DNA of 64,000 bases from NCBI GenBank assembly GCA_902592675.1, contig CACJFJ010000001.1:124001-188000 (forward strand), in the 5' to 3' direction. Origin of the DNA: an uncultured Pelagibacteraceae bacterium. GTDB lineage: Bacteria > Pseudomonadota > Alphaproteobacteria > Pelagibacterales > Pelagibacteraceae. Of this stretch, positions 10,609-47,749 are shown piece after piece; position 1 is the stretch's first letter, and the number at the start of each line of letters is the position of its first letter. Below the pieces are notes generated by a model. It searched no databases. It saw only the letters and a program-made list of their open reading frames with translations, and was not told the DNA's origin. The position numbers were made by a program, and so were the translations under genes.

Positions 10609-10959
10609 ATGGATAATATTTCAAATCTAAAAAAAATTATTATTAACACACTAGATACAAATAAAGCACAAGATATAATAAGTATTGATCTTAAAGATAA
10701 AAGTTCAATGGCTGATTATATGATAATTGCTAGCGGAACTTCATCTAGGCATATTCAATCATTGTCTGAACAAGTTTTAGAAAAATTTAAGAGCAATGGT
10801 CTAAAAAACTCTAAAATTGAGGGAAAAGACAGCAATGAATGGAAGTTAGTTGATGGTATAGATTTAATTGTTCATATTTTTCATCCTGAGAAAAGGAAAT
10901 TTTACGAGCTTGAAAAAATGTGGAGTGAACTTATACCAAAAGAAAAATTGATAATATAA
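10609..10959 (+). CDS. rsfS: Ribosomal silencing factor RsfS
   Basis: SMADYMIIASGTSSRHIQSL, WKLVDGIDLIVHIFHPEKRKFYELEKMW. Confidence 0.93.
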   Translation: MDNISNLKKIIINTLDTNKAQDIISIDLKDKSSMADYMIIASGTSSRHIQSLSEQVLEKFKSNGLKNSKIEGKDSNEWKLVDGIDLIVHIFHPEKRKFYELEKMWSELIPKEKLII

Positions 10960-12092
10960 TGAAAAAAAAACTTTTTACACTTACCTTTTTTTTTATAATT
11001 TTTTTTAAACCTGTAAATTCTGTTGAAAATATTATTTATCAAAAAATTGATTTATTTGGAGAAGTACTAGAAAAAATTAACAAAGAGTATGTTGACGAAA
11101 TAAATCAATCAGAAAGCATGGACTCTGCCATTAATGGTTTGCTTCAATCTTTAGACCCATATTCTGCCTATATGTCGCCTGAGGTGTTTAATGAAATGCA
11201 AACTGAAACAAGTGGTGAATTTGGAGGTCTTGGTATTGAGGTCAGTATGGAGTCAGGTGTTGTAAAAGTAATATCTCCAATTGATGACACACCAGCATCT
11301 AGAGCAGGAATTAAAGCTGGTGATTACATTGTAAAAATTAATGATACTCAAGTGCAAGGAAAATCTTTAAGTGAGGCAGTAGATTTAATGAGAGGTCCTG
11401 TTGGTTCTGGAATAGAATTGACTGTTAGAAGAAGAGGTGAAAGAAAAGCACTTACATTTAATATAATCAGAGAGATAATACAAGTTAAGTCTGTCAAAAC
11501 AGATTTAATTGAAAAAACAATTGGTTATATTAGATTAACATCATTCAATGAAAATAGTGCAGAACAGATTAAAAAAGAAATTAAGAAATTAGAAAAAGAT
11601 AATGAGGTAATATCTTACATTTTAGATTTAAGGAATAATCCTGGAGGTTTACTTTCACAAGCAATCCAAATTTCAGATTTTTTTTTAGATGACGGTGAAA
11701 TAGTTTCAACAAAGAGTAGAAAGGCCTCTGAAAATAGAAAATGGTTTGCTAAACAAGGTGATTTAACAAATGGAAAAACACTGATTGTCCTGATTAATTA
11801 TGGATCTGCATCAGCGTCTGAAATTGTTGCTGGTGCTTTAAAAGATCATAAAAGAGCAATCGTACTAGGTGAAAATAGTTTTGGCAAAGGATCTGTTCAA
11901 TCAATAATCCCTTTAAAAAATAAAGGTGCGATAAGACTTACAGTGGCTAAATATTATTTACCCTCTGGAAAATCTATTTCTGAAGTAGGTGTATCACCAG
12001 ATATTGAAATCAGTGAGCAATCTGACAATTTTAGAATTAAAACAGAAACCGATAATCAATTAAAATACGCTATTAAGTTACTCAACGGTTAA
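10959..12092 (+). CDS. ctpA: S41 family C-terminal processing peptidase
   Basis: Signal peptide, PDZ domain, YGSASASEIVAGALKDHKRAIVLGENSFGKGSVQ catalytic Ser/Lys region. Confidence 0.93.
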   Translation: MKKKLFTLTFFFIIFFKPVNSVENIIYQKIDLFGEVLEKINKEYVDEINQSESMDSAINGLLQSLDPYSAYMSPEVFNEMQTETSGEFGGLGIEVSMESGVVKVISPIDDTPASRAGIKAGDYIVKINDTQVQGKSLSEAVDLMRGPVGSGIELTVRRRGERKALTFNIIREIIQVKSVKTDLIEKTIGYIRLTSFNENSAEQIKKEIKKLEKDNEVISYILDLRNNPGGLLSQAIQISDFFLDDGEIVSTKSRKASENRKWFAKQGDLTNGKTLIVLINYGSASASEIVAGALKDHKRAIVLGENSFGKGSVQSIIPLKNKGAIRLTVAKYYLPSGKSISEVGVSPDIEISEQSDNFRIKTETDNQLKYAIKLLNG

Positions 12093-43593: not shown

Positions 43594-44178
43594 TTATTTT
43601 TTTTCTGGTGAGCTTTCTTTTTTCTTTTCAGCTTCTTCCTTATTTACTTTTACTTTTGGAGTTTCTTCTTTGTTAGTTTCTGTCGCTGGTGCAACTTCTA
43701 CTTTAGAAACTTCCTCTTTTTTATTATCTGGTGCTGGAGTAACTGGTGCTAAATTTTCTTCAGTTACTGATTCTGGTTTAACATCAATATCGATACCAAT
43801 CTTCTTTCTTATTTTTTCTGCAATTCTAGCTGATTTACCAGTTCTGTCTCTTAAATAATATAATTTTGCTCTTCTAACTTTTCCTGAACGAATAACTTTG
43901 ATTGAGTCTATTACAGTTCCAAATAATGGAAATGTTCTCTCAACACCTTCTCCAAAAGAAATTTTTCTAACAGTAAATGAAGAGTTCAAATCTCTATTTT
44001 TTTTTGCGATACAAACACCTTCAAAATATTGAATTCTTTCTTTTTTTCCTTCAGTAATTCTCACACCAACTTTTACCACATCACCCGGAAAGAACTCTGG
44101 TAGTTTCTTCTCAGAAAGAATTTTTTTAATATTGTGCTGGTTTATTTCTTCAATTGTTTTCATTTTAATATTTAGCAA
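43594..44178 (-). CDS. rplS: 50S ribosomal protein L19 with long low-complexity C-terminal extension
   Basis: [56 protein letters not shown]; ~75-aa E/K/P/T/A-rich tail. Confidence 0.95.
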
Positions 44179-44179
44179 T

Positions 44180-44866
44180 TTAATCTTTCTTATATTTTTG
44201 CCATAAATCTGGTCTTCGGTCGCGTGTTATAGCCTCAGATTGAGACAAACGCCAGTCTTTAATTTTACTATGATCTCCCGATAATAAGACATCTGGAACC
44301 GATTTTTCCTCCCAAATCTGTGGTTTTGTGTATTGAGGATACTCTAAAAGACCGTTTTCAAAAGTTTCATCAGAAGCTGATTTATCATTTCCCAAAACAC
44401 CTGGCAATAGTCTCAAAACACTATCGAGAATTACAAGAGCTGCTGTTTCTCCACCTGATAACACATAATCCCCTATACTTATTTCTTCGATATTTCTTGT
44501 AGATAAAATCCTTTCATCAACTCCTTCAAAATGTCCACAAATCAAAGAAAATGATTTTTCCTTTGATAAATCTTGAGCAAGCGTTTGATCAAATTTTTTT
44601 CCCTTTGGTGAGAGATAAAAAATCCTTTCTCCATTCTTAACATTTTGATCAATAGAGTTTGCCAACACATCAGGCTTAAGTAACATTCCTGAGCCACCAC
44701 CATATGGAGTATCATCTACCGTCTTGTGTTTATCTTTCGCAGCATCTCTAATATTTATCACATTTAGGCTCCATAAATTTTTAGCTAATGCTTTACCGTA
44801 CAGACCTTTGTTCAAAGGACCTGGAAAAACTTCTGGATAAAGAGTAAATAATTGAGCTTGTAACAT
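44180..44866 (-). CDS. trmD: tRNA (guanine-N1)-methyltransferase
   Basis: [49 protein letters not shown]. Confidence 0.96.
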
Positions 44867-44880
44867 ATGTAAAATTTAAA

Positions 44881-45390
44881 CTATTTTTTTTCCTCCTTAG
44901 GAGCTTCTGCTTTAGGAGCTTCTTCCTTTTTAGCTTCTGCTTTAGGAGCTTCTTCCTTTTTAGCTTCTGCTTTAGGAGCTTCTTCCTTTTTAGCTTCTGC
45001 TTTAGGAGCTTCTTCCTTTTTAGCTTCTGCTTTAAGAGCTTCTTCCTTTTTAGCTTCTGCTTTAGGAGCTTCTTCAGCACCTTCTTTTTTTCTATCTTTT
45101 TTAGGAACTGCCTTTTGAGGATTATTGCCGTTAGCAGGCATAGGCATCAATTCATTTTCACCTAAAATCCTAGCCACTCTTGTTGTAGGTTGTGCACCTT
45201 GACCCAACCAGTATTTAATTCTTTCAGCTTCTAATCCAATTCTTTCCTTTTTTTCTTTTGGCAGTAATGGATTGAAAAAACCTACTTTCTCAATAAATCT
45301 TCCATCTCTTGCGAAACGACTGTCTGCAACTACGACCTTGTAAACAGGTCTCTTCTTTGTACCACCTCTTGATAATCTAAGTTTTAACAT
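44881..45390 (-). CDS. rpsP: 30S ribosomal protein S16 with repetitive C-terminal tail
   Basis: [26 protein letters not shown]16 core, then [10 protein letters not shown] decapeptide repeats. Confidence 0.95.
44901..45075. repeat. 30-bp in-frame tandem repeat in rpsP (five full units plus partial flanking units)
   Basis: Unit tttaggagcttcttcctttttagcttctgc at 44911, 44941, 44971, 45001 and 45031 (the last with one G->A), partial copies at both ends. Confidence 0.97.
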
Positions 45391-45404: not shown

Positions 45405-46763
45405 TTATTTTAATTGATTAAATAATTCTGGAGGTATTCCTTTATCAGACATACCCTTCAGATTTCCTTTTGACATCTTTTTCATCATTTCAGACATCAT
45501 TTTAAATTGTTTTAACAATTTATTGATAGTGGCTGGATCAGTTCCAGAGCCATTAGCAATTCTTTTTTTTCTTGAACCGTCAATTATTTTTGGGTTTTCT
45601 CTCTCTTTTTTAGTCATTGATAAAATTATAGCCTCATTTTTTGTAATGACACTCTCATCGATACCAGCAGCATCCATTTGAGATTTTACTTTTGAGACAC
45701 CTGGCATAAAAGACATGATCCCCTCTATTCCACCCATTTTTTTCATTTGCCTCAATTGTGTTAAATAATCTTGCATCGAAAATTGTCCTTTTTTTAAATT
45801 TTCCTCTGTCTTTTTAATATTTTCTTCTCCTAAATCTTGAGCTGCTTTTTCAACAAGAGATACTATGTCTCCCATTCCAAGAATTCTGTTTGCAATTCTA
45901 TCTGGGTGAAATACCTCAAGATTTTCAATTTTCTCACCTATACCTAAAAACTTAATTGGAACCTGTGAAATAAATTTCATACTAACTGCAGCTCCGCCTC
46001 TAGCATCACCGTCTGCTCTAGTTAAAATTATTCCAGAAAGATTAACTGTGTTTTTAAATTCTTTTGCCACAGATGCTGCAACTTGTCCAGTGAGTGAATC
46101 AGCAACTAAAAAAGTCTCTGCAGGCTTAATTGTATTCTCAATTTGTTTAATCTCACTCATCATTTGTAAATCTATTTGTGTTCTACCAGCAGTATCAAAT
46201 AAAATAATATCTGCACCATTCAGATTGGCAGCGCTAATAGCTCTTTGACAAATGTCAGCAGGTTGTTGACCCTCAATTATTGGAAGAGTTAAGATGTTGT
46301 TTTGCTCGCCTAAAGATCTTAATTGTTCTTGGGCAGCTGGCCTATAAATATCTAAACTAACCATCATTACTTTCTTTTTTTTTGTATTTTCCAAATATCT
46401 TGCAAGTTTAGCAGTTGTAGTGGTCTTACCAGAACCCTGAAGTCCAACTAGCATCATTGGCACTGGCGGTACAGCATTAAGATTTACATCATTATTTTTT
46501 TCACCTAGCAAGTTTACCAATTCATCATAGACAATCTTAACGACCATATCTCCCGGAGATGTTGATCTTATTATTTCTTGACCTAAAGCTTTTGGTTTTA
46601 CTTTCTCAATAAAATCTTTGGCAACATCAAGTGATACGTCTGCTTCTAATAAAGCTTGTCTTATACCTCTTAATCCCTCATCAACTTGATTTTCATCAAG
46701 TGATGGTGCTTTTTTTAAAGAGGAAAAAACTTCCTCGAATTTATTTGTCAAATTTTCAAACAT
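45405..46763 (-). CDS. ffh: Signal recognition particle protein (SRP54); start re-set to MFENL
   Basis: MFENLTNKFEEVFSSL start; GLQGSGKTTTTAKLA; DTAGRTQIDLQMM; M-domain. Confidence 0.95.
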   Translation of the reverse strand: MFENLTNKFEEVFSSLKKAPSLDENQVDEGLRGIRQALLEADVSLDVAKDFIEKVKPKALGQEIIRSTSPGDMVVKIVYDELVNLLGEKNNDVNLNAVPPVPMMLVGLQGSGKTTTTAKLARYLENTKKKKVMMVSLDIYRPAAQEQLRSLGEQNNILTLPIIEGQQPADICQRAISAANLNGADIILFDTAGRTQIDLQMMSEIKQIENTIKPAETFLVADSLTGQVAASVAKEFKNTVNLSGIILTRADGDARGGAAVSMKFISQVPIKFLGIGEKIENLEVFHPDRIANRILGMGDIVSLVEKAAQDLGEENIKKTEENLKKGQFSMQDYLTQLRQMKKMGGIEGIMSFMPGVSKVKSQMDAAGIDESVITKNEAIILSMTKKERENPKIIDGSRKKRIANGSGTDPATINKLLKQFKMMSEMMKKMSKGNLKGMSDKGIPPELFNQLK

Positions 46764-46783
46764 ATTTATTACACGCATTAGTA

Positions 46784-46864
46784 ATCGCACTAGTGGGCGA
46801 ACCCTCGCTGACTAGTGTCGATCTCTTTGTTTCCAAAGACACCGCAAATTTAACGTTTTTGCGG
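46784..46864 (-). ncRNA. Candidate structured ffh leader or small RNA (three consecutive hairpins)
   Basis: Minus-strand hairpins: CCGCAAA/TTTGCGG; TCTTTG-GAAA-CAAAGA; ATCG-a-CACTAGT.../...ACTAGTG-CGAT with an internal GGGTTCGCCC. Confidence 0.6.
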
Positions 46865-46878
46865 AAACTGCCACAAAC

Positions 46879-46884
46879 TATAAT
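46879..46884 (+). promoter_or_regulatory. Candidate -10 element (TATAAT) in the ffh/dapF divergent intergenic region; the overlapping minus-strand TATTAT could serve ffh
   Basis: CTATAATAG reads TATAAT on + and TATTAT on -; located at the outer edge of the hairpin cluster. No strong -35 found for either direction. Confidence 0.4.
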
Positions 46885-46924
46885 AGAGGTTCAAAAAGTC
46901 AATAAATAAGTTAAATAACTATAT

Positions 46925-47749
46925 ATGAACATTAAAGCATTTAAAATGAACGGATTAGGTAATGACTTTGTAATTATAGATAATAGACAGAAAATTACCC
47001 ATTTAACTAAGGATCAAATAATTAAGATTTGTGATAGAAATTTTATTGGCTGTGATCAATTAATATTTATTGAAAATGATGAAGCAGCTGATGCAAACTT
47101 AAAATTCTTTAATTCTGATGGTGGAGAGTCGGGTGCATGTGGCAATGGAACAAGATGTATTGCGGGTTTCATTTCAAGAGAAACTAATAATAAAACTATA
47201 ATATTGAATACATTTTCTGGAAATTTAAAGTCTGAAATTTTAGGAAATAATATAGTTACAACAGAAATTGGTAAAGCTAAAACAGATTGGAATGAAATAC
47301 CTTTATCAGAAAAATTAAATACAAAAAATTTAAATATTAAAATACACGATAAAAATAACAAAGAATATTTTGGTGGTACTACAGTAAATGTTGGAAACCC
47401 ACATATCATTTTTTTTGTTAATGAACTTGATAATTTTGATATAAAAAAAATTGGTCCAGGTATTGAAAATCATAGTTTTTTTCCAGAAAAATGTAATGTC
47501 ACTATTGCTCAAGTAATAAAGAAAGATTTGATTAAGGTTAAAGTTTGGGAAAGAGGAGCCGGATTAACCAAAGCATGTGGTACAGCTGCTTGTGCAACAG
47601 CATTTGCTGGTAAATTAAATAATTTAACAGAAAATAAGACAGATATAGAGTTTTCGACAGGCAAACTATCTATTTTGATTGATAAAAAAAATTCAATACA
47701 CTTGAAAGGTCCTATATCAAATATAAATGAAATTGAGATCAAACTATAA
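46925..47749 (+). CDS. dapF: Diaminopimelate epimerase
   Basis: MNGLGNDFVIID; SGACGNGTRCIAGF; ERGAGLTKACGTAACATA. Confidence 0.96.
   Translation: MNIKAFKMNGLGNDFVIIDNRQKITHLTKDQIIKICDRNFIGCDQLIFIENDEAADANLKFFNSDGGESGACGNGTRCIAGFISRETNNKTIILNTFSGNLKSEILGNNIVTTEIGKAKTDWNEIPLSEKLNTKNLNIKIHDKNNKEYFGGTTVNVGNPHIIFFVNELDNFDIKKIGPGIENHSFFPEKCNVTIAQVIKKDLIKVKVWERGAGLTKACGTAACATAFAGKLNNLTENKTDIEFSTGKLSILIDKKNSIHLKGPISNINEIEIKL

Follow-up and report, generated by a model that had tools for sequence, protein, structure and literature searches.

What kind of RNA precedes ffh in Pelagibacteraceae, and to which product might it respond? The question arises from a 64,000-nt stretch of DNA from an uncultured member of this family (hereafter the window), in which a sequence-only reading had marked three minus-strand hairpins, in the spacer that separates the divergently oriented dapF and ffh, as a candidate structured RNA, either an autoregulatory ffh leader or a stand-alone small RNA. 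Below we identify the motif at the core of this element, compare its structure across SAR11 and the class, and weigh what it may do in genomes with and without a detectable SRP.

Identity and genomic setting

The element is not new to science. An Rfam scan at gathering thresholds finds RF01793 ("ffh") at 46780-46832 on the minus strand, over its full length (1-52) and at 54.1 bits, where the gathering score is 35, with no other Rfam family above threshold at the element's position. Hairpin c is the RF01793 "ffh motif", an already known alphaproteobacterial RNA element, and the proposed novelty falls with this match. Meyer et al. 2009 (PMC2704228) found the motif between ffh and dapF in Ca. Pelagibacter ubique HTCC1062 and described it as one hairpin, supported by covariation, whose bulge has two conserved cytosines. 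They also reported it from Rhodobacterales, Sphingomonadales, and Rhizobiales. Ffh has been its assumed partner since then. In our samples RF01793 is present in 222/247 genomes from the window's order and 106/385 from its class.

The window's element agrees with the published motif in hairpin c, in the ffh-dapF spacer, and in the genus of discovery, and shows the same defining traits: a bulged hairpin with covariation, conserved CC in the internal loop (SAR11 alignment), and a position upstream of ffh. It differs in extent, since the RF01793 model is a 52-nt single hairpin that lacks hairpin a and represents b′ by its 3′ arm only, treated as unpaired, whereas here we find a complete b′ helix together with hairpin a (Table 1). 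Furthermore, the original report ties the motif to ffh, while we also find it without ffh, before rpsP. As far as could be found in the open-access literature, to which our search extended, neither the larger architecture nor the competition of a with b′ nor survival after SRP loss has been described.

Table 1. Features of the ffh leader and neighboring genes (window coordinates)
Feature	Position	Strand	Remarks
dapF	46925-47749	+	
-35-like TTGACT	46897-46902	-	TTGAC kept in 103/103 SAR11 leaders examined
-10-like TATAGT or TAGTTT	46882-46877 or 46880-46875	-	Candidates from sequence and register with f2 promoters
Hairpin a	46842-46864	-	CCGCAAA 46864-46858 / TTTGCGG 46848-46842; 3′ arm GCGG shares CGG with helix b′
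Hairpin b′	46819-46844	-	CGGU-g-UCUUUG-GAAA-CAAAGA-g-AUCG; found by RNAalifold
Hairpin b as first described	46824-46839	-	TCTTTG 46839-46834, GAAA, CAAAGA 46829-46824; inner part of b′
Stem c as first described	46822-46811 / 46794-46784	-	ATCG-a-CACTAGT / ACTAGTG-CGAT
Hairpin c	46788-46817	-	7-bp stem, 2x2 internal loop CA/CC, then GCGA/UCGC
Spacer to ffh	46764-46787	-	Most relatives: conserved unpaired UG(C/U)UG(G) element; here UACUAAUGCGUG
ffh	45405-46763	-	SRP54_N, SRP54 GTPase, and SRP_SPB domains
rpsP (ribosomal protein S16)	44881-45390	-	C-terminal tail of tandem repeats
trmD	44180-44866	-	rimM absent between rpsP and trmD
rplS (ribosomal protein L19)	43594-44178	-	

The SAR11 loci examined share one layout: a promoter is followed by hairpins a and b and then by motif c, and the ffh start codon comes roughly 20 nt later. 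In the window 24 nt separate the end of stem c from the ffh start codon (ATG, 46763). The TTGAC of the -35-like element is also present in many other alphaproteobacteria, and TAGTTT is the -10 candidate in register with the promoters of the sister family f2 (TTGACA-17-TAnTTT). Judged from these elements, transcription probably starts at about 46866-46872. The TATTAT (46885-46880) that had been put forward as a -10-like element fits poorly, as its spacer to TTGACT would be only 11.

The suggestion that the element is something other than the SRP RNA holds. RF00169, the bacterial small SRP RNA that works with Ffh, is encoded in the same genome but as a separate gene (contig C8, 40600-40692, 34.9 bits), the Rfam scan yields no RF00169 match within the window, and no GGAAGCAGC-type strand, as in the symmetric loop of SRP RNA, is present in the motif.

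Structure and conservation of the leader

All three inverted repeats are present on the minus strand where they had been described. The 127-nt stretch 46764-46890 has a folding energy of -37.6 kcal/mol, compared with -26.25 ± 3.37 for shuffled sequences (z = -3.4; 1/200 shuffles as good), and the stretch 46771-46871 gives z = -4.2 (0/200 as good). The block is also GC-richer than its surroundings, as had been noticed (0.40 in subwindows across 46750-46899 vs. 0.22-0.25 just upstream). In an alignment of 38 diverse SAR11 leaders, 9 pairs of hairpins a, b, and c show two-sided compensatory changes, and 0/500 shuffles reach the count of compensatory cells or the covariation score. Covariation in homologous spacers, proposed beforehand as a check, is thus found, and together with the fold energies it bears out that the ffh leader contains a structured RNA.

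The comparative fold departs from the first description. RNAalifold, applied to the 38-leader alignment, pairs the CGGU in hairpin a's 3′ arm with the AUCG that lies between b and c, so that hairpin b caps a longer helix, b′. Hairpin a is 94.6% paired in SAR11, with two-sided changes, b′ is 98.8% paired, and b′ and c together reach 99.5%. In 30 leaders b′ has C-G as its outermost pair and in 8 it has U-A, and the same column in hairpin a forms G-C in 30 and A-U in 8; three positions (5′ arm of a, 3′ arm of a/5′ arm of b′, and 3′ arm of b′) shift jointly from G/C/G to A/U/A. On a tree of 103 loci built from ffh fragments, the A state of the linker position appears on two separate branches, each time with a change in its b′ partner; for hairpin a the three-way change is read from the alignment, its tree reading having used an unreliable loose pattern. 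A three-way covariation with two events on the tree is suggestive rather than proof.

These data do not support the switch that had been proposed within stem c. The fold GGG-UUCG-CCC lacks support because the GGG is not conserved and is missing in relatives that keep the CCC. Nor does the 4-bp extension of stem c (AUCG/CGAU) stand, its pairs being broken in up to 12/38 SAR11 relatives. The alignment supports a different predicted competition, in which hairpin a and the extended helix b′ would contend for the shared CGG. A pseudoknot in which ACAGCAA, the loop sequence of hairpin a in many relatives, would pair with a UUGCUG preceding the start codon was also considered and rejected, as native combinations barely beat swapped ones (means -5.36 vs. 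-4.84 kcal/mol, spread 3.3).

Across the class, we fitted 72 distinct sequences to the structure. In this structure-fitted alignment two-sided changes occur at 10/10 pairs of b′ and 9/11 of c (19/21 together), with 275 compensatory cells vs. 75 ± 7.5 in shuffles (0/500 as high); hairpin c is 99.9% paired and hairpin a 85.9%, the latter again with two-sided changes. In most class copies a b′-type hairpin ends 1 nt before stem c and is built from many different sequences, for example CGGUCCCCCGCC..GGGGGAUCG (L131), UGGUUUU..AAAAUCA (L139), GCCCCC-GAG-GGGGC (L157), and CAAUCC..GGAUUG (L172). On held-out copies from f51, the family treated below, a b′+c model beats an a+b+c model by 6 to 9 bits (51.7 vs. 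42.7 at L170, 55.8 vs. 47.7 at L180, and 53.8 vs. 47.1 at L184); hairpin a of f51 is a separate AT-rich hairpin that does not share the CGG. Conversely, some copies with a CCGG-type hairpin a score higher when a is included (59.5 vs. 53.2 at L071). Because of these model scores, we regard b′+c as the common core and hairpin a as a competitor in some lineages only.

The GNRA loop of b is mostly maintained within the genus but not beyond it. The internal loop CA/CC, GUCAGCG, and CGCCCAC are conserved far beyond what stability alone needs. Across the class, 8 to 283 nt separate the motif from the first start codon.

Retention in an apparently SRP-less family

The marine alphaproteobacterial family f51 (OCS116/PS1-type; 18 genomes, mostly single-cell or metagenome assemblies, 6/18 at least 90% complete) apparently lacks the SRP. 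The SRP GTPase domain PF00448, common to Ffh and FtsY, has no match over the cut-off in the 18 f51 genomes, where one weak partial match falls below it, and is found in 14/14 controls. The Ffh M-domain PF02978 (SRP_SPB) has no match in 4 f51 genomes, with matches in five other genomes and 14/14 controls; the window's Ffh protein as a query has no match in four f51 genomes; and SRP RNA is found in 0/18. Gene order tells the same story. In relatives (L200, L201) ftsY-mtaB-dapF diverges from motif-ffh-rpsP-trmD-rplS, and on f51 contigs without any N mtaB-dapF diverges from motif-rpsP-trmD-rplS, ffh and ftsY being gone from their ancestral places. At L132, L145, and L149 the motif is likewise followed by rpsP. 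Other f51 loci include L170-L173, L184, L188, L194-L197, and L202. Our search of the open-access literature returned no report of SRP loss in the PS1/OCS116 group, and a marine alphaproteobacterial family without detectable SRP is notable in its own right.

The motif is retained in 14/18 f51 genomes, directly before rpsP, and within the family 4 pairs, in both hairpins, carry two-sided changes, with 98% of cells pairing. This retention and the compensatory changes indicate that the RNA is under selection in f51 without the SRP. Since f51 keeps the RNA without detectable Ffh, FtsY, or SRP RNA, neither Ffh nor 4.5S RNA can be its required partner, and the element is probably not a sensor of the protein-targeting pathway. 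The comparisons show the conserved structure of b′ and c, their tie to the locus in a cis position, and retention of the RNA independently of Ffh, FtsY, and 4.5S RNA. The family is a natural experiment against an Ffh partner, and points to a ribosomal-protein operon whose regulation is otherwise unreported.

Possible functions of the leader

Common to the lineages downstream of the RNA is rpsP-trmD-rplS, and the arrangement, a structured RNA upstream of a ribosomal-protein operon (with rpsP and rplS downstream), is that of a ribosomal-protein leader. In all testable motif-bearing genomes of the class (77/77, those with motif and rpsP on one contig) rpsP lies downstream on the same strand, at a median of 1.6 kb, although this link alone proves little because synteny was counted in motif-bearing genomes. 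We tentatively favor, with slightly more doubt than confidence, the reading that the fuller RF01793 element acts in cis as a 5′ leader for the (ffh-)rpsP-trmD-rplS operon and that its partner is more likely one of the operon's ribosomal products. A sigma70-type promoter would start the mRNA, and its first ~100 nt would fold into hairpin a at the 5′ end and then, with 1 nt between them, b′ and c; the conserved UGYUUGG-like stretch would come next, before the opening gene of the ffh-rpsP-trmD-rplS transcript. Binding of b′/c by such a ribosomal product would lower translation. In SAR11 and some other groups a and b′ would be mutually exclusive through the shared CGG, so strand exchange could set two states.

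By analogy, our best guess for the partner in this putative cis control of the operon is S16 first and L19 second: structured RNA precedes rpsP-rimM in Flavobacteria, with inferred S16 feedback (PMC7247131), and no other control of the trmD operon has been reported (PMC10931766). The Flavobacteria leader resembles ours in being a structured RNA before rpsP(-rimM); it belongs to another phylum, and in ours ffh usually comes first. Against this reading, a search with the core pattern finds a single occurrence in the genome, at the ffh locus, with no second copy (for example in rRNA) and no similarity to an rRNA site of S16 or L19. The narrower proposal that the ffh motif is an S16-TrmD-L19 feedback leader of Alphaproteobacteria, with adjacent b′ and c and a SAR11 a/b′ strand-exchange switch, which outlived the loss of the SRP pathway, is possible but doubtful.

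Several alternatives compete with a ribosomal partner. A serious rival, though rather unlikely in our estimate, is a general mRNA leader without any ligand, whose 5′ hairpins guard against decay, are cut by RNase, or aid initiation, and which is kept wherever the operon goes. In its favor, hairpin a would begin only a few nt from where transcription is inferred to start, the element has moved from ffh to rpsP with an altered downstream context, and the start-codon distance varies widely over the class; the excess conservation of the CA/CC loop, GUCAGCG, and CGCCCAC argues against it. Autoregulation by Ffh (or the SRP), with Ffh binding its own mRNA leader, was suggested by the discoverers of the motif and agrees with an element that stands directly before ffh in nearly all genomes, but those authors saw no resemblance to the portion of 4.5S RNA that Ffh binds (PMC2704228), and the retention and compensatory changes in f51, where the element precedes rpsP, make this form of the earlier proposal quite improbable.

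We also find it hard to credit, though somewhat less so than Ffh autoregulation, that the element acts in trans as a small RNA cut or terminated from the ffh leader. Rfam types RF01793 as an sRNA, its transcript is reported from small-RNA metatranscriptomes (PMC2704228), and a Mesorhizobium huakuii sRNA candidate has been annotated as RF01793; however, a processed leader fragment would equally show as small RNA, the same operon always lies downstream, and there is no intrinsic terminator on the minus strand at the element, with at least 5 U in the 9 nt after stem c in 1/38 SAR11 copies. The same U-run count weighs on a transcription attenuator, in which hairpin c would be a terminator competing with upstream pairing: 17/60 non-SAR11, non-f51 copies do have at least 5 U in the 9 nt after hairpin c, but the GC-rich hairpin followed by a U-run that defines an intrinsic terminator or attenuator is wanting in SAR11, the window included, and the internal loop is conserved, so we give this explanation very little credence.

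Some further observations concern the surrounding sequence. At L075, L081, and L076, long inverted repeats or repeat elements lie between motif and ffh. The rimM gene, missing from the window at 44866-44881, is retained in f51 (L172, 5203-5706). The C-terminal tail of the window's S16 consists of 5.8 copies of a 30-bp tandem repeat (44902-45075), with a ten-letter protein unit, and one f51 S16 (L172, 5722-6237) has a different repeat tail, rich in Ala, Pro, and Glu. Finally, RF02800 (Rickettsia sRNA47) matches the window at 11628-11940 on the minus strand (62.4 bits), antisense within a protease-like gene (10959-12092, plus strand), and this match probably reflects conserved coding sequence rather than an sRNA.
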